The notes under the pieces were generated by a model that worked only from the letters and a program-made list of their open reading frames with translations, had not been told where the DNA came from and did not search any database. The translations under genes and the position numbers were made by a program. Shown one piece after another: positions 141-6,348 of a DNA stretch of 6,436 nt; positions within the stretch are counted from its first letter, which is position 1; every line of letters starts with the position of its first letter. Source of the stretch: JBBIVP01 sp037439705 [NCBI: bacterium] (GTDB lineage: Bacteria > JBBIVP01); assembly GCA_037439705.1 (NCBI GenBank), contig JBBIVP010000124.1, positions 1 through 6,436 of the forward strand. The letters run 5' to 3'.

Positions 141-1931
141 TTATTGAGAAGTGCTTTTAAGAACTTCGTCTATTTCATTTCCCTCCAGAACCTCCTTTTC
201 AAGAAGAGCCTTAGCAAGTTTGTGGAGTTTGTCCATGTTCTCAGTAATTATTTGTTTTGCTCTTGAATAACAGGTTTCAACAATCCTTTTTATCTCCCTG
301 TCAATTTCAATTGCTGTGGCTTCACTGAATTCTGCATACCTTGCTATTTCCCTTCCCAGGAATATGTGTTCTTCCCTTTTTCCAAAAGTTACAGGTCCCA
401 GCCTCTCGCTCATTCCCCACTCACAAACCATCCTTCTTGCAATTTCAGTTGCCCTTTCAAGGTCGTTTCCTGAACCGGTTGTAAGGGTTCCAAGAACAAT
501 CTCTTCCGCTGCCCTTCCCCCAAGGAGCACAGTTATTGTGGCTATGAGATAATCTTTGTTATAGATATATTTATCTTCAAGAGGAAGCTGTTGCGTGGCT
601 CCGAGAGACATCCCTCTCGGGATAATGGTTACTTTATGAATTGGGTCGCTGTTTGGATGTATTTTTGCTACCAGGACATGTCCTGACTCGTGATAGGCTG
701 TTAGTTTTCTTTCCTCTTCGCTTATTATCATGCTTTTTCTTTCAATGCCCATTAGAATTTTGTCCTTGGCCTTTTCAAAATCTTCCTGCTCAACCTTTTT
801 CTTGTTTTTTCTTGCTGCGATCAGGATTGCCTCGTTCACCATATTTTCTATATCAGCCCCTGAAAAACCGGGCGTCCCCCTTGCAATTTTGGAAAGTTCT
901 ACATCCTCTCCAAGAGGCACCTTCTGGGTGTGAACCCTTAAAATCTGCTCCCTTCCTTTTACATCTGGACGCGGAATGAAAATTCTTCTATCAAACCTTC
1001 CGGGTCTAAGTAAAGCTGGATCAAGGACATCGGGTCTGTTTGTTGCAGCAATGACAATTATTCCTTCATTTGATTCCATACCGTCCATTTCAACAAGAAG
1101 CTGATTCAGGGTCTGTTCTCTTTCGTCATGTCCGCCACCAAGCCCTGTTCCTCTCATTCTTCCCACTGCATCAATTTCATCTATAAAGATGATGCAAGGT
1201 GCATGCCTTTTTCCCTGTTCAAATAGGTCCCTCACCCTTGCTGCTCCAACTCCAACGAACATCTCAACGAATTCCGAACCGCTTATGCTGAAGAACGGCA
1301 CCTTAGCCTCTCCAGCTATAGCCTTTGCGAGGAGTGTCTTTCCTGTTCCAGGTGCCCCAACAAGAAGCACACCCTTCGGAATCCTTGCACCGAGGGCTCC
1401 ATACTTCTTTGGTGCTTTGAGAAAGTCTATTATTTCTTTGACCTCTTCCTTAGCCTCGTCTATCCCTGCAATATCATTGAAAGTAACTTTCTGAGTGGAA
1501 GGGGTGAAGAGCTTTGCCCTGCTCTTTCCAAAGCTAAAGGCTTTCCCGCCGGGAACTTGTATCTGCCTCATCATTCCTATCCAGAATATTACAAATATAA
1601 AGAGCGGTATTAGAAAGAGAATATCCCTCCAGAACTGGGTATTTCTTTCCCTTTCGGCTTTCACGCTCACATTGTGGGAACGGAGAAATTTCAGAAGGTC
1701 TGGGTCATTTATCAGAACAGTTCTGTAGATTTCGTTTTTTATACCCTTTCCTTCCGCTTCATTTCCCTGTATTGTAACCTCTTTTATTTCACCATTTTCA
1801 ATCTTTGAGTAAAATTCAGTAAGCGTGAGTTCCTTCGGAGCATACTCTTTGTTTTTTATATACCAGTAGAGTGCTATGAAGACTGTAAAGATAAAAAACC
1901 ATACTATTAAGCTTTTTATTGTTTTCTCCAT
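141..1931 (-). CDS. ftsH: ATP-dependent zinc metalloprotease FtsH
   Basis: Membrane-anchored AAA+ protease that extracts and degrades misfolded membrane proteins and short-lived regulators, working as a hexamer on the cytoplasmic face of the inner membrane. Seen in the 596 residues: a first membrane segment at about 6-25, an extracytoplasmic domain at about 26-102, a second membrane segment at about 103-121, Walker A GAPGTGKT at 192-199, the pore loop MFVGVG at 224-229, Walker B ending D251-E252, and a second region of homology with ATNRPD and arginine fingers R312 and R315. The zinc site is HESGH at 414-418 (usually HEAGH), with D490 in SGNDLERAT as the probable third ligand. A short coiled-coil-like helix ends the protein. 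It is slightly shorter than many FtsH proteins (about 610-650), mainly at the C-terminus. The ATG at 1931 is chosen because the first membrane segment follows directly; no clear Shine-Dalgarno precedes it. It lies 62 bases after the ferredoxin gene and is functionally unrelated to that operon. Identity is certain. Confidence 0.98.
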
Positions 1932-1993: not shown

Positions 1994-2197
1994 TCAGTAT
2001 TCCTTTTTTATTATAATTGCGTTTTCGGGACATACCTCAAGACATAGATTGCAGAAGGTGCATTCGTCTTCGTTTTCAGAAACTACGGATATTTTTTCTC
2101 CTTTGACCTCAAAAATGTTAAGGGGACATACTTCAACGCATTTTTTACATCCATCCCTGCAATTTTCCTTTATTATTACTGTAACAAATGTTCCCAT
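1994..2197 (-). CDS. Small 2[4Fe-4S] ferredoxin, KorD/PorD-like
   Basis: A 67-residue cytoplasmic electron carrier with two four-cysteine clusters. The first is C13, C17, C20, C24 followed by Pro (spacing CX3CX2CX3CP); the second is C46, C49, C52, C56 followed by Pro (the usual CX2CX2CX3CP). The extra residue between the first two cysteines of cluster 1 is unusual; all eight ligands are present. Size and layout match bacterial dicluster ferredoxins and the delta subunit of 2-oxoacid:ferredoxin oxidoreductases. In many genomes (known from family context, not shown here) such a subunit follows sucC-sucD and precedes the catalytic kor genes. Here it follows a sucCD-like pair, but ftsH comes next. 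Its ATG overlaps the upstream TGA by one base (TGATG), and AAAGGAG at 2212-2206 lies 8 bases upstream, fixing the start. The electron partner cannot be read from the sequence. Confidence 0.9.
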   Translation of the reverse strand: MGTFVTVIIKENCRDGCKKCVEVCPLNIFEVKGEKISVVSENEDECTFCNLCLEVCPENAIIIKKEY

Positions 2198-3081
2198 CAG
2201 ATAAACTCCTTTATGATTTCTGGAATTTCAGAATAGGTTTCAACCACTATACATCCCGCTGATTTAAAAAGTTTTATTTTTTCTTCTGTGGTGCCGTATC
2301 CGGGTCTTACAATAACTGAGGCATGTCCGAATCTCATGCCGGGCATTCTATCCACAAACCTTCCTCCGAAAAACACCACAACCTTTTTTGTGAACTTCTC
2401 CCTTATGAATTCTGCAGCTGCCTCTTCTTTTTTCCCACCCGGTTCACAGAAAAGCAAAACAACTTTTGTTTCCTCATCCTCCTGAAAAAGAGGGAGAAGG
2501 TCAGTATATGTAGTTCCAACAACCGGATCTCCTCCTATTCCAATCACGGTTGATTGTCCGATTCCATTCCTTGTAAGGATGTTCGCCAGTTCCGTGCACA
2601 TTCCACCGCTTCTTGAGATTATCCCAACAGGTCCCTTCATGTAAGCCTTTTCAGGATTGCTTCCACCAAGGTAACCAAGCCTTGTTTCTTCCGGGCATAT
2701 AATTCCGGGAGAGTTTGGACCGATAACCCTTGCTCCTTTTGATTCCGCAAATGCAAGCATCTCTATCACATGGGATTTTGGAATCCTTTCGGTTAAAACC
2801 ACAATGAGTTTTATTCCAGCATCTGCTGCCTCCATAACTGCATCCTTTGAAAAAAGCGGAGGAACAGAAACAATGGAAGTATCACCTCCACATTTTTCAA
2901 CTGCTTCTATCACGGTATCAAAAACAGGAATTCCGTGAACCTTTTGTCCCCCTTTTCCGGGTGTTACACCCGCCACAACCTTTGTTCCGTATGCGAGCAT
3001 TTCCTGCGACATTGTGGCTGCTTCCCTCCCTGTTATTCCCTGAATTATCACCCTTGTATTTCTGTCCGCAAGGATTGCCAA
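2197..3081 (-). CDS. sucD: SucD-like acyl-CoA ligase (NDP-forming) alpha subunit
   Basis: CoA-binding and phosphohistidine-carrying subunit of an acid:CoA ligase (acid + ATP + CoA to acyl-CoA + ADP + phosphate). The 294 residues start with a CoA-binding Rossmann domain (QGITGRE at 14-20, GVTPGKGG at 38-45), continue with GPNSPGI at 121-127, and end with a ligase domain holding GIGGDP at 181-186, E213 in CEPGG and the catalytic histidine H253 in RFGHAS. Length matches SucD and malate-thiokinase alpha subunits. Several stretches differ from ordinary SucD and resemble ATP-citrate lyase: SRSGGMCTELANI at 156-168 (SucD usually has SRSGTLTYEA), LGYLGG at 135-140, and FGHA rather than MGHA. The symbol is therefore family-level; the acid could be succinate, malate, citramalate or citrate. 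The start is TTG, directly after the beta-subunit TAA, supported by a strong ribosome site and by the normal SucD N-terminus (compare SILIDKNT). Confidence 0.9.
   Translation of the reverse strand: MAILADRNTRVIIQGITGREAATMSQEMLAYGTKVVAGVTPGKGGQKVHGIPVFDTVIEAVEKCGGDTSIVSVPPLFSKDAVMEAADAGIKLIVVLTERIPKSHVIEMLAFAESKGARVIGPNSPGIICPEETRLGYLGGSNPEKAYMKGPVGIISRSGGMCTELANILTRNGIGQSTVIGIGGDPVVGTTYTDLLPLFQEDEETKVVLLFCEPGGKKEEAAAEFIREKFTKKVVVFFGGRFVDRMPGMRFGHASVIVRPGYGTTEEKIKLFKSAGCIVVETYSEIPEIIKEFI
2206..2212 (-). promoter_or_regulatory. Ribosome-binding site of the ferredoxin gene
   Basis: AAAGGAG on the minus strand lies 8 bases before the ATG at 2197. It sits inside the end of the alpha-subunit gene. 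Together with the TGATG stop/start overlap, it supports translational coupling between the two genes. Confidence 0.75.
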
Positions 3082-4278
3082 TTATCCCTCCTTCTTTAAT
3101 AATTCCACTATGAATTTTGCAGCCTCATCCATTGTATGCTCTCTCGTGAAGTATTTTATTCCATATTTTTCAAGAATTTTAAAACCCTCTTCCTCCCATG
3201 AACCCGGAACCCTGAAGACAACCGGAAATTTTGATGGGTCTATGCCCTTTGAAAGCATCCCCTTTATAACCCCTCTTGCCACCAAGTCAACCCTCGTATT
3301 TGATAGAACATTTGTAATGACTGCAACCCCCCTTATTCCCTTTTTGCTCAAAAGGAGTTCTGTCAGTTTCTGAACCTTTTTCACAGTTGGATTTCCTCCT
3401 ATCTCACAGTAGTTTGCAGGCTTTCCTCCGTATCTTAAAATTGCGTCAAATACGGTCAAACTTGCTCCTCCACCTCCGATTATCAGTGCAAGATCTCCAT
3501 CAAATTCAACAACCCTCCCGGCAACCCCTCTGTGGTCAAGTTGGTCTATTTCCTTTGCTTTTATCTCAAGTTCTGTTGGTTCCCTCTCCTTTTCCTCTCT
3601 TATCGGTATGTTGAACCTTTCAAGATTTTTTTTCTGAAGGTTAAGAGCGTCATCGTCTATTTCAATCCTTGAGTCAGCGCAGAAGAATTCGTGTTCTTTC
3701 GTCAGGATAAGTGGATTTATTTCTGCCAGATTAGCATCCATTTTTATGTAAAGGTCATAAAGCTGGACAGCAATTTCAGAGAGTTGAAGGAGGGTCTTTC
3801 CTTTAAATCCAGTTGTTGCGAAAAACATTTTCATCATAAAACTTTTAACTCCTGTAAAGGGGTCAATTGTCAATTTCAAAACCCTTCCGGTTTTTGCAAT
3901 CTCCTCCACATCCATTCCGCCCTCTGTAAAGAGAATGCAGTTCCTTTTTTCAAGCTCATCAATGGTGATTCCAAGATAAAACTCCTTTTCCGCCATCAGT
4001 TTTTTTTCAAGAAGAATACCGCGAACACGAGTCCCATCAAATCCTTCCTTGAAAATTTTTTCTCCGAACTCAAGAAGTTCCTTTTCATCTTTTATTTCTC
4101 TAACTCCTCCTTTCTTTCCCCTCCCTCCTTTTAGACCCTGAACCTTCGCCATAAGTGGAAAACCGATTTTTTCACCTGCCTTTAAGAGTTCATCTTCTTT
4201 TTCAACGAGTTCACCTTCGGGCACAGGTAAATTCCATTCCTTAAAAAGCCTTTTCCCCTCAAATTCATAAAACCTCAT
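3082..4278 (-). CDS. sucC: SucC-like ATP-grasp acyl-CoA ligase beta subunit
   Basis: Nucleotide- and acid-binding subunit that pairs with the alpha subunit encoded next. The 398 residues contain an N-terminal ATP-grasp domain (KGGRGKKGG at 50-58, TEGG at 118-121, metal-site region LAEINPL at 184-190 and D202 in ADSR) and a C-terminal ligase-CoA domain (GGGGAS at 268-273, GGNPT at 294-298, FRVPGS at 355-360). Length is normal for SucC (about 390). In ordinary SucC the C-terminal domain has an NIFGGI-type loop before RCD that helps bind succinate; here the aligned stretch reads NVLSNTRVD (323-331), so the Gly-Gly is lost. GGGGAS and YCEIGG also lean towards ATP-citrate lyase and citryl-CoA synthetase large subunits. 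The arginine recalled as a citrate ligand in human ATP-citrate lyase aligns to V357, so citrate is not assured. Start ATG overlaps the lyase stop by 4 bases (ATGA), with AAGAGGA at 4292-4286. The symbol is family-level. Confidence 0.9.
   Translation of the reverse strand: MRFYEFEGKRLFKEWNLPVPEGELVEKEDELLKAGEKIGFPLMAKVQGLKGGRGKKGGVREIKDEKELLEFGEKIFKEGFDGTRVRGILLEKKLMAEKEFYLGITIDELEKRNCILFTEGGMDVEEIAKTGRVLKLTIDPFTGVKSFMMKMFFATTGFKGKTLLQLSEIAVQLYDLYIKMDANLAEINPLILTKEHEFFCADSRIEIDDDALNLQKKNLERFNIPIREEKEREPTELEIKAKEIDQLDHRGVAGRVVEFDGDLALIIGGGGASLTVFDAILRYGGKPANYCEIGGNPTVKKVQKLTELLLSKKGIRGVAVITNVLSNTRVDLVARGVIKGMLSKGIDPSKFPVVFRVPGSWEEEGFKILEKYGIKYFTREHTMDEAAKFIVELLKKEG
3087..3093 (-). promoter_or_regulatory. 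Strong ribosome-binding site deciding a TTG start
   Basis: AAGGAGG on the minus strand lies 5 bases upstream of the TTG at 3081. The spacer contains the TAA stop of the beta-subunit gene, which abuts the TTG with no base between. No in-frame ATG lies nearby (the next methionine is residue 24, inside the nucleotide-binding fold). The near-perfect site plus a canonical SucD N-terminus make TTG the start. Confidence 0.85.
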
Positions 4279-5132
4279 TTTTTTATCCTCTTCGCAAGTT
4301 TCTTTATTTTCAAAGCCTGTTCGTAATGAAGTCTCTCAATCATCTCTCCATCAATTGAAATAACACCTATTCCCTTTTTCATGGCTTCTTCATAATGTGA
4401 TATAACCTTTTGAGCCCAAAGAATCTCTTCATCAGAGGGAGAAAAAATTCTGTTTACAATTTCTATCTGGGATGGATGAATTATCTGTTTTCCATCAAAT
4501 CCCATCTCCTTCGCAATAAGGCAGTCCCTTTCAAGCCCTTCAGTATCTTTTATGTTAAAAAATGGTGCGTCAATGACATCAATCTTTTTTGTCCTTGCTC
4601 CTGCTATCACCAAACTCATAAGGGGTTGAAGTATTTCCTTCTTGTTCTTACACCTCATTTCTTTTGATAAATCTGCAGAACCAAGAAGAAATGCTGAAAG
4701 TTTTTCTGACGAATTTGCTATCTCCCTTATCCTGAGAACCGATGAAGGAGTTTCAATCATGAGATGGATTTTTATTTCTTTCTTCAGCCCTTTTTCCTTT
4801 GAGACTTCATAAACCATCCTTTCAAAACTTTGGACATCTTTTTCCGATAAAACCTTTGGAAGAAGAACCGCATCAATTTTATCGGAAAGAACACTTCTAA
4901 GGTCGTCCCGGGTAAGTCCGCTTTGAAGTCCGTTGACCCTTACTATCACCTCTTTTTCGCCGAAGGACAATTCGTTAATAAAATTTTTAAGAACTTCCCT
5001 TGCCTTTTCCTTCTGGTCAGGGGCAACCGCATCCTCAAGGTCAAAAATTATTGCGTCTGCTTTTAATTCAGCAGATTTTCTTATCATCTTTTCCGATATC
5101 CCGGGAACATAAAGTATACTCCTTCTTATCAT
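4275..5132 (-). CDS. CitE/HpcH-family CoA-ester lyase (malyl-, citramalyl- or citryl-CoA lyase-like)
   Basis: TIM-barrel lyase of the HpcH/HpaI-CitE superfamily. Family members cleave a 3-hydroxyacyl-CoA to acetyl-CoA (or propionyl-CoA) plus a 2-oxoacid, or run the reverse Claisen condensation, with Mg2+. In the 285 residues: RSILYVPG at 4-11 (typical family start), FDLEDAV at 30-36, R65 in VRVNG, metal ligands E127 (IETP) and D154 (GSADLS), FDGKQIIHPSQ at 212-222, and the C-terminal lid motif DGEMIE at 261-266. In most relatives this last motif reads GxMID or GxMVD, and that Asp is proposed to act in catalysis in the human homologue CLYBL; here it is Glu. Size fits CitE, MtCitE and CLYBL-type lyases better than the longer serine-cycle Mcl (about 320). 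I see no gene for an acyl-carrier subunit (CitD) or CitF in the window, so a free CoA ester is the likely substrate. Overlaps both neighbours by 4 bases (ATGA). Confidence 0.9.
   Translation of the reverse strand: MIRRSILYVPGISEKMIRKSAELKADAIIFDLEDAVAPDQKEKAREVLKNFINELSFGEKEVIVRVNGLQSGLTRDDLRSVLSDKIDAVLLPKVLSEKDVQSFERMVYEVSKEKGLKKEIKIHLMIETPSSVLRIREIANSSEKLSAFLLGSADLSKEMRCKNKKEILQPLMSLVIAGARTKKIDVIDAPFFNIKDTEGLERDCLIAKEMGFDGKQIIHPSQIEIVNRIFSPSDEEILWAQKVISHYEEAMKKGIGVISIDGEMIERLHYEQALKIKKLAKRIKK
4286..4292 (-). promoter_or_regulatory. Ribosome-binding site of the beta-subunit gene
   Basis: AAGAGGA on the minus strand, 7 bases before the ATG at 4278, inside the last codons of the lyase gene. 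With the ATGA overlap it indicates coupled translation. Confidence 0.65.
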
Positions 5133-6304
5133 ATCACCCCATCCCCTTTAAGTTTTTTTATTTCTTCATCATTCATGCCGAGAAGAGCTTTCAGAATTTC
5201 TTCCGTATGCTCACCGTGAAGAGGTGGAAACGAAAATTTTTCCGAGTTCACCCCATCCATTCTTATTGGATTGCCCAGAACATTTAAACCTCCTATTTCC
5301 TGAACCATATTTCTTGCCTTTATCTGTTCATCATTAAGAGCCTGAGCAATATTATAAACAGGAGCGCACGGAATTTCAGCAGTTTCAAGAATTGAAAGCC
5401 ATTCCTCTGTTGTCCTTTCCTCAAATTTTTTTTCAAGTATGGAAAGGAGTTCAGATTTGTTTTTTAGTCTATTCTCGTTGGTTGAGAATTTTTCGTCGTC
5501 TATGAGCTCAGGAAGACCTATTGCGTTTGCAAACCTTTCCCAGAACTTCTCCGTAAGGATGGCAACCACGATGTAAGAATCCTTTGTTTTAAAAGCCTGA
5601 TAGGGAACTATCGTCTGATGGGACGAACCAACTCTCCCGGGAATTTTTCCATCTACAAAATAGTATTCTGCCACATATGTCAAAAGGGAGATATTAGAGT
5701 CAAGAAGCGAAAGGTCTATCTTTGTCCCTCTTCCAGTTTTTTCCCTTAAATAAAGTGCAGATGAGATTGCTATCGCTCCGAAAAGTCCTCCCGCAATGTC
5801 GCCCAGTGGAATTCCCATCCTAACAGGAGGAAATCCCTCATATCCAGTTATGCTCATTGCTCCAGAAATAGCCTGGATGCTCAGATCAAATGCAGGCTGA
5901 TGAGCCCTCGGACCATCAACTCCGAAGGCAGAGATTGAACACGAGATTATTTTTGGATTTATTTTTGAGAGGGTTTCATAATCTATTCCTAATTTTTTTG
6001 GCACATCTGGTCTGAAATTGTCAAGCACTACATCAGATTTTTTCACAAGTTCATAAAATATCATCCTTCCTTTTTCATTTTTTAGATTGAGAGTCATTCC
6101 TTTTTTATTTCTGTTTATGCTTATGAAATAGGCGCTCATCCCTTTCCATCTTGGTCCCATATTTCTCGTTGGGTCCGGTTCATCAGGTGGCTCTATTTTT
6201 ATTACCTCTGCCCCAAGGTCAGAGAGTATAAGACTGCAATATGGACCCGCCAGAACCCTTGTAAGGTCAAGAACCCTTATTCCCTCAAAAACCTTTATTC
6301 TCAT
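5129..6304 (-). CDS. Type III (CaiB/BaiF family) CoA-transferase
   Basis: Moves CoA from a donor such as succinyl-CoA or acetyl-CoA to a carboxylic acid, through a covalent glutamyl/aspartyl intermediate, as an interlocked dimer in the cytoplasm. Residues counted from the upstream TTG (392 in all): N-terminal RVLDLTRVLAGPYC at 11-24, AEVIKIEPP at 33-41, DNFRPD at 96-101, AFDLSIQA at 139-146, and the catalytic D170 in GIPLGDIAGG, matching Asp169 of formyl-CoA transferase. Length (about 390-400) is typical. The family covers transferases for malate, citramalate, itaconate, mesaconate, carnitine and benzylsuccinate, so the substrate is read from context: the gene leads an operon with a CitE-type lyase, as in itaconate degradation and the 3-hydroxypropionate bicycle. 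Two starts are possible: ATG at 6304 (used here) or the adjacent in-frame TTG at 6307, which is 8 bases after a partial AAAGAGAG ribosome site. They differ by one residue. Confidence 0.93.
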   Translation of the reverse strand: MRIKVFEGIRVLDLTRVLAGPYCSLILSDLGAEVIKIEPPDEPDPTRNMGPRWKGMSAYFISINRNKKGMTLNLKNEKGRMIFYELVKKSDVVLDNFRPDVPKKLGIDYETLSKINPKIISCSISAFGVDGPRAHQPAFDLSIQAISGAMSITGYEGFPPVRMGIPLGDIAGGLFGAIAISSALYLREKTGRGTKIDLSLLDSNISLLTYVAEYYFVDGKIPGRVGSSHQTIVPYQAFKTKDSYIVVAILTEKFWERFANAIGLPELIDDEKFSTNENRLKNKSELLSILEKKFEERTTEEWLSILETAEIPCAPVYNIAQALNDEQIKARNMVQEIGGLNVLGNPIRMDGVNSEKFSFPPLHGEHTEEILKALLGMNDEEIKKLKGDGVI

Positions 6305-6348
6305 CAAACTATTTTCTCTCTTTAAAAATAAAAATCAATTATTCGGCG

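Follow-up and report, generated by a model that had tools for sequence, protein, structure and literature searches.

A clade of acyl-CoA ligases with a co-inherited ferredoxin, found in one operon with a CitE-type lyase and a class III CoA-transferase in JBBIVP01 sp037439705

Why should an acyl-coenzyme A (acyl-CoA) ligase, whose chemistry has no redox step and does not need electron transfer, be encoded together with a ferredoxin? The question is raised by a stretch of 6,436 nucleotides from the bacterium JBBIVP01 sp037439705 (contig JBBIVP010000124.1 of assembly GCA_037439705.1; the whole stretch is called the window here), in which five genes lie on the minus strand in the transcription order transferase, lyase, LigB, LigA, ferredoxin. 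Specifically, these encode a class III (CaiB/BaiF) CoA-transferase (5129..6304; CoA_transf_3, E 2e-126, 422.5 bits against a Pfam cut-off of 23.3), a CitE-type CoA-ester lyase of the HpcH/HpaI fold (4275..5132; HpcH_HpaI, E 2e-45, 155.2 bits against 25, which places it in the HpcH/HpaI aldolase superfamily), the beta (ATP-grasp) subunit LigB of a nucleoside diphosphate (NDP)-forming acyl-CoA ligase (3082..4278; ATP-grasp_2, 5.2e-40), its alpha (CoA-binding) subunit LigA (2197..3081, with a TTG start; CoA_binding 1.5e-26, Ligase_CoA 3e-17) and a 2[4Fe-4S] ferredoxin-like protein, the partner of the ligase (1994..2197; Fer4 1.7e-10, 40.7 bits against 21.1), with eight Cys in two four-Cys motifs. 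Transferase and lyase overlap by 4 bases, lyase and LigB by 4 bases, and LigA and ferredoxin by 1 base, while LigB and LigA abut. An earlier sequence-only reading of the window had described this order, and both gene calls and Pfam matches bear it out, as they do its remark that the window contains no hydratase; the combination of transferase, ligase, lyase and ferredoxin also matches, as it had said, no named pathway that could be found. We lean towards reading the operon as a unit for the activation and C-C cleavage (or the reverse) of a hydroxy-di- or tricarboxylic acid, with the ferredoxin as a partner dedicated to the ligase.

The tie between ligase and ferredoxin was followed in related loci, namely the best 80 of 199 LigB relatives from one LigB-seeded scan and 16 stretches from genomes identified with a LigB profile (A1), giving 96 loci (95 distinct ones, L102 being a repeat of L054). 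Neighbouring genes in these loci were identified with a chosen set of tblastn queries, and genes not represented in that set were missed. CitE-type and citryl-CoA lyases were counted within 9 kilobases (kb) of the ligase, and genes are called chained when they share a strand with gaps of at most 800 bases. The ferredoxin lies 3′ of LigA on the same strand within 4.5 kb in 82/96 loci and within 800 bases in 70/96, and even in L032, where LigA is ~6.4 kb away from LigB, it still comes after LigA. Among the 14 loci without it, four (L019, L045, L064, L079) end at most 91 bases past LigA and seven show no LigA by the rule of the script used; in four of these seven the contig ends there (L047, L048, L061, L075) and in three it continues (L029, L044, L105).

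At the level of genomes the association is sharper. Profile searches across three phylum samples (543 genomes) found a ferredoxin of this type (profile A2) in 17 of the 18 genomes with LigB and in none of the 525 others (8/8, 6/6 and 3/4 against 0/190, 0/192 and 0/143), and in all 17 it lies within ~2 kb of LigB. Members of the LigB clade score 4e-169 or better, and no other protein reached 1e-110 in four samples, the next-best non-member in the sample of 147 genomes being at 2e-94. For the ferredoxin, the weakest members stand at 2.4e-20, 4.0e-27 and 4.4e-22 in the three samples and the best other matches at 1.5e-9 and 1.9e-12 in the first and second, with none reaching the 1e-11 limit in the third; the cut-off was chosen after this gap in the scores was visible. 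Sequences from five positive genomes (G001, G002, G003, G005 and G499, the last sharing its contig with L054) are part of the A2 profile itself; the remaining 12 of the 17 are not known to be. In many genomes only some first-look candidates were scored (at most nine for LigB, at most 29 or 40 in the case of the ferredoxin), which makes the absences less than exhaustive; the samples are phylum samples and not phylogenetically independent, and many records are metagenome bins with doubtful taxon labels. Within this scope the ferredoxin is shown to be co-inherited with the ligase. It is the most constant and the oddest partner of the ligase, a point which the sequence-only reading overlooked, and no description of a ligase-ferredoxin unit was found in the open-licence literature.

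All eight Cys are present in 22 of 83 ferredoxins (one from the window, the rest from the 82 loci). In another 55, precisely the four Cys that we take to bind cluster I are gone; of the remainder, five are intermediate and one is cut by a contig end. The four presumed to bind cluster II (Cys 24, 46, 49 and 52 in the window, spanning 2042..2128) are kept in every uncut member. Keeping one complete cluster site where the other is lost argues for a working iron-sulfur protein. On a tree of LigA (82 rows) the loss of cluster I maps as a single change, with a Shimodaira-Hasegawa-like approximate likelihood ratio test (SH-aLRT) value of 100 and an average of 22.8 changes in shuffles; this tree comes with a long-branch warning that includes the branch of the window. 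Distances between LigA sequences and between ferredoxins correlate with r 0.84 over 81 rows, as co-inheritance would give. Three single-cluster ferredoxins reached no NCBIfam model at its cut-off. Fusion of LigA and ferredoxin was checked by reading frame alone: the two share a frame in 15 loci, and eight of these were read through (L003, L005, L009, L021, L041, L053, L056, L062), all with a stop between the two genes.

What, then, is the ligase? The best NCBIfam models for both subunits are those of succinate-CoA ligase, and neither is reached (LigB 257 bits against the cut-off of 375.55 for TIGR01016, LigA 316.8 against 353.2 for TIGR01019); the malate-CoA ligase beta model NF010647 is not reached by LigB either (165 against 604 bits). 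Among proteins of solved structure, LigB is closest to the large subunit of citryl-CoA synthetase (6hxq, 185.1 bits), with the SucC of Thermus next (171.6 bits). In a tree of 41 beta-type subunits, 23 LigB rows form a clade of their own (99/98), apart from a SucC clade of 14 rows (100/99) that has two annotated malate thiokinases nested inside it; citryl-CoA synthetase, a single row, sits on a long branch outside both, its place unsure. More specifically, the C-terminal half of LigB shares with citryl-CoA synthetase the DHRG segment (IDQLDHRGVAG, 3517..3549), which is a gap in the rows of SucC and malate thiokinase, as well as IGGNP and the NTR motif (3292..3300), invariant in 17 clade rows. 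In the alignment of these rows the glycine loop (GGGGASLT in the window, 3454..3477) reads IGGGGASLT in 11/17 and IGAGGGSLT in 6/17, whereas SucC and the thiokinases have NGAGL. On the alpha side, the FGHA histidine, presumably catalytic, is kept in 24 aligned rows. Of 11 genomes in which the LigB clade occurs, seven also encode a separate, canonical SucC, and every one of these proteins falls in the SucC clade.

Identity with SucCD was therefore rejected, on the cut-offs of both models, the separate clade and the separate SucC in 7/11 genomes, and so was identity with malate thiokinase, since LigB is below the cut-off of NF010647 and stands apart from the annotated thiokinases within SucC. 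Judged from sequence, LigB-LigA is shown to be a distinct clade of NDP-forming acyl-CoA ligases with pocket motifs like those of citryl-CoA synthetase, and its substrate would be a hydroxy acid. The labels of the tree rows name nine phyla (Actinomycetota, Chloroflexota, Myxococcota, Thermodesulfobacteriota, Schekmaniibacteriota, Caldifarciminota (WOR-3), Tectimicrobiota, Methylomirabilota and Pseudomonadota), the records being metagenome bins whose labels are not all reliable. The clade is patchy, with 4/147, 1/201, 6/198, 8/198 and 4/4 genomes carrying it in five phylum samples (profile A1), and the nearest relative of the window's LigB, among the best 80 of 199, is 58% identical. A further SucC-like branch, with frames of more than 500 amino acids, was seen outside both the SucC and LigB clades in WOR-3-type genomes (L090, L091, L139).

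The lyase has malyl-CoA lyase and CLYBL as its solved relatives and keeps the motifs DLEDAV, RVNG, IETP, GSAD and IHP. It falls below the CitE model TIGR01588 (218.5 bits, cut-off 443.4), so that identity as the CitE of citrate lyase was rejected, and neither CitD nor CitF is among the six genes of the window; it is also below the RipC model NF038242 (187.8 bits, cut-off 375), on which ground an itaconate (rip) operon was rejected. Lyases of this kind usually act on malyl-, citramalyl- or citryl-CoA, and because these are their usual substrates the ligase is taken to make or use esters of these types. A search covering the ligase-bearing genomes, and not those without the ligase, gave a match at E 1e-20 in 18 of the 24 searched. 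The ten nearest window-type lyases (39-47% identical) come from G001, four Schekmanbacteria, four WOR-3-type genomes and G008, all ligase-bearing, and their genes sit in stretches without a ligase match; the operon of the window unites with the ligase a lyase type that elsewhere co-resides unlinked. Aligned with CLYBL and with the lyases of related loci, the window lyase has Glu at position 266 (4335..4337), where CLYBL has Asp. The same Glu is found in nine of the ten nearest window-type lyases, which may be noted as a Glu subtype of the CitE superfamily (L203-L211).

Around the related ligases, a CitE lyase is near in 54/96 loci and a citryl-CoA lyase, which has an unrelated fold, in 4/96, and a C-C lyase is chained to the ligase on the same strand in 50/96. 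Ligase, ferredoxin and C-C lyase form a recurrent module, and the five-gene order is, as far as seen, specific to the window. The sequence-only reading had named lack of conservation beyond one genome as what would refute its gene order; by that standard the five-gene order fails and the ligase-ferredoxin-lyase core holds, and the idea of a conserved five-gene cassette was rejected, a window-type transferase being near the ligase in 0/96 loci by tblastn (one weak match lies ~9 kb from the ligase, in L069). Near the ligase there are also genes for acyl-CoA dehydrogenases (24/96), mesaconyl-CoA-hydratase-like proteins (19/96), MmgE/PrpD (13/96), phosphoenolpyruvate carboxykinase (PEPCK, 13/96), B12-dependent mutases (10/96) and SdhA (Sdh/Frd-like, 10/96), and neighbours other than the lyase vary by lineage. 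The earlier reading had suggested a search nearby for a hydratase; hydratase-like genes are met in some relatives but not in the window. In three loci (L003 at 11666-12337, L123 and L124) a citryl-CoA lyase of the citrate-synthase fold directly follows the ligase-ferredoxin triad in place of CitE, and in L024 it directly follows LigA; in L003 this lyase scores above the cut-off of an NCBIfam model for citryl-CoA lyase. Citrate could be cleaved in two steps at these four loci, which would place that route outside Aquificota.

The transferase is the window-specific companion of this module. Its best solved relative is the succinate-hydroxymethylglutarate CoA-transferase 9br6 (309.6 bits), and none of the seven NCBIfam models matched is reached at its cut-off (the best, NF008511, 328.9 against 522 bits); the named class III transferases for oxalate, glutarate, mesaconate and carnitine were rejected, no specific NCBIfam model being reached. 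An in-frame TTG lies one codon upstream of its start, at 6307. Homologues with 45-48% identity occur in G001, G002, G004, G007 and G008, where the stretches that hold them, 10-14 kb long, show neither a lyase nor a ligase match.

Put together, LigB-LigA would use ATP and CoA to turn the acid into a beta-hydroxyacyl-CoA (e.g. malyl-, citramalyl- or citryl-CoA), and the CitE-type lyase would split the ester to give a 2-oxo acid and acetyl-CoA (or propionyl-CoA); in the reverse direction the lyase would condense and the ligase could recover ATP. The class III CoA-transferase may add an ATP-free entry, found in the window only, by swapping CoA with another acyl-CoA. For the ferredoxin, as the dedicated partner of the ligase, the likeliest role is that of a small iron-sulfur subunit, accessory or regulatory, and not that of a carrier serving neighbouring enzymes. 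A wider proposal is offered tentatively, as conceivable and not far-fetched: that throughout the clade (about nine phyla by record labels) a [4Fe-4S] third subunit of the ligase gates the activation of malyl-, citramalyl- or citryl-type CoA esters together with their cleavage or synthesis.

Several observations weigh against this reading. The transferase is missing from the related loci, as described above, and the Glu266 of the lyase replaces a conserved Asp (MID in CLYBL), presumably catalytic, which is Asp in 53 of 54 related-locus lyases, the other having a gap. The second Arg of citryl-CoA synthetase is missing from LigB, whose glycine loop varies in 6/17 rows; LigA is more SucD-like than synthetase-like; and in 4/11 genomes no SucC-like protein besides LigB was found, so that LigB might serve as a succinate ligase there. 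The ferredoxin also has its exceptions: G035 carries LigB without adjoining LigA or ferredoxin (the one exception among the 18 genomes with LigB), and L017, L018 and L024 have LigB-LigA with no ferredoxin in more than 8 kb of downstream sequence. Moreover, two AlphaFold2 models of read-through proteins lend no support to docking of the ferredoxin. These are the LigA-ferredoxin of L053 (mean predicted local distance difference test (pLDDT) 88.5; predicted template modelling score (pTM) 0.74, about the residue share of LigA, 306/410; alignment of 39 rows) and a LigB-LigA-ferredoxin protein (pLDDT 82.5; pTM 0.67, low overall; alignment of 37 rows). With so few rows and so low a pTM for the triad, these models may be read as not strongly opposing docking.

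The main rival, which seems rather unlikely, makes the ferredoxin an ordinary, soluble carrier of electrons that serves some redox enzyme of the pathway, encoded elsewhere, and shares the operon only for co-regulation. It would suit a protein with a normal fold and normal Cys motifs that the structure models do not dock, and it could call on the Sdh/Frd-like genes and acyl-CoA dehydrogenases near the module. However, no single redox gene that was searched accompanies the ferredoxin throughout (the search took in no redox enzymes beyond the query set), whereas the ligase does so, both in the position of the ferredoxin after LigA and in its distribution over genomes.

A doubtful but related possibility, compatible with the activation-and-cleavage reading, which leaves direction open, is that the module is mainly synthetic, the lyase joining a 2-oxo acid to acetyl-CoA by condensation and the ligase regaining ATP as malate or citramalate is released. 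Loci of aerobe type speak for it through their PEPCK, B12-dependent mutase, acyl-CoA dehydrogenase and mesaconyl-CoA-hydratase-like genes, which recall glyoxylate-regenerating pathways. Such neighbours are absent from the window, though, and sequence cannot give the direction.

It is improbable that LigB-LigA is instead a succinate-CoA ligase supplying succinyl-CoA to the class III transferase, which would then activate the true substrate. The nearest NCBIfam models, the 4/11 genomes without any other SucC-like protein and the resemblance of the transferase to succinate-dependent enzymes all fit such a role, but the separate clade with its different pocket motifs, the separate SucC in most of the genomes compared and the occurrence of the module without such a transferase nearby go against it. 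The sequence-only reading had left two roles to the ligase; priming the transferase with succinyl-CoA now fits less well, and activating the hydroxy acid itself fits better. The latter is preferred because both subunits fall below the SucC/SucD cut-offs, LigB forms a separate clade with citryl-CoA-synthetase-like motifs and coexists with a separate SucC in 7/11 genomes, and lyases of two unrelated folds are found near the ligase. That the five genes are accidental neighbours brought together by genome compaction, with no shared pathway, would agree with the absence of the transferase from related loci and with the unlinked lyases of other hosts, but is very improbable given the overlapping junctions, the C-C lyases chained to the ligase and the presence of window-type lyases in ligase-carrying genomes, and a chance grouping is discounted because the family matches are full-length and the ligase-ferredoxin-lyase part recurs elsewhere.

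Pairs of a ligase and a CoA-ester lyase are already known, namely citryl-CoA synthetase with citryl-CoA lyase (in an excerpt of PMC5441870) and malate thiokinase with malyl-CoA lyase (tabulated in PMC5023235). The first of these, the two-step citrate cleavage of Hydrogenobacter and its relatives, resembles the module of the window in having a two-subunit NDP-forming ligase that feeds a CoA-ester lyase, in the pocket motifs DHRG, IGGNP and NTR and in the citryl-CoA lyases near some related ligases. It differs in that LigB does not form one clade with the single synthetase tested (whose long branch leaves its place unsure) and lacks the second Arg, that the lyase of the window is CitE-type, with no citryl-CoA lyase of the citrate-synthase fold in the window, and that a dedicated ferredoxin stands on the LigB-LigA side, synthetase loci not having been examined for one. 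The second, from the serine cycle, likewise joins a SucCD-like ligase to a CitE-superfamily lyase, but the thiokinase nests within SucC while LigB stands apart, the window has no serine-cycle genes, and the annotated stretches of Paracoccus and Ruegeria have no ferredoxin. SucCD itself is similar in subunit architecture and in the FGHA histidine of the alpha subunit, and unlike LigB-LigA in the model scores, clade, pocket motifs and dedicated ferredoxin discussed above.

Itaconate degradation uses a CoA-transferase, a hydratase and citramalyl-CoA lyase (in an excerpt of PMC12290011). The window shares with it the CoA-transferase and a CitE-superfamily lyase, but has no hydratase, a lyase below the RipC cut-off, and the ligase and ferredoxin in addition. 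The mitochondrial itaconate route is entered through succinyl-CoA ligase or SUGCT and proceeds by a hydratase and CLYBL; the transferase of the window resembles SUGCT and its lyase CLYBL, whereas the missing hydratase, the ligase clade and the ferredoxin set it apart. What is new is therefore not the pairing of ligase and lyase but a further ligase lineage with an iron-sulfur partner of its own.

For annotation, the consequence is that the label ‘succinate-CoA ligase’ is probably wrong for the LigB clade, and if so, metabolic reconstructions of many uncultured bacteria receive a succinate step in place of a step of hydroxy-acid cleavage or synthesis. The co-inherited ferredoxin also raises the testable question of why an acyl-CoA ligase needs an iron-sulfur partner. 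Whether the answer is a new regulatory subunit or a so far unrecognised redox link to central carbon metabolism, it would, as far as known, be a novelty in this enzyme family, and should the gating proposal be true, there would be an iron-sulfur requirement within a family whose chemistry has no redox step.

The remaining gene of the window encodes an FtsH protease (141..1931, minus strand) that lies 62 bases downstream of the ferredoxin. It is probably an unrelated neighbour and not part of the operon, because FtsH is near the ligase in 0/96 related loci (tblastn). Its matches, at 64% at best over most of the protein, point to no single taxon.

The surroundings of the triad differ between lineages as follows: MmgE/PrpD, HD-domain and Sdh/Frd-like genes in loci of Desulfobacterales type; a mesaconyl-CoA-hydratase-like protein, a transhydrogenase (named by eye) and an acyl-CoA dehydrogenase in those of Myxococcota type; PEPCK and MaoC in those of Actinomycetota type; and a B12-dependent acyl-CoA mutase with a second CitE protein in those of Chloroflexota type. 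The two nearest LigB relatives (L001, 7130-17129, and L002, 5607-15368) are clustered with genes for a glycyl-radical enzyme, a class I CoA-transferase, a 3-hydroxy-3-methylglutaryl-CoA (HMG-CoA)-synthase-like protein and a thiolase. In four loci of Chloroflexota type (L007, L008, L057, L073) the triad adjoins B12-dependent mutase, CitE, acyl-CoA dehydrogenase or hydratase-like genes, sets that by analogy resemble an ethylmalonyl-CoA-type pathway.

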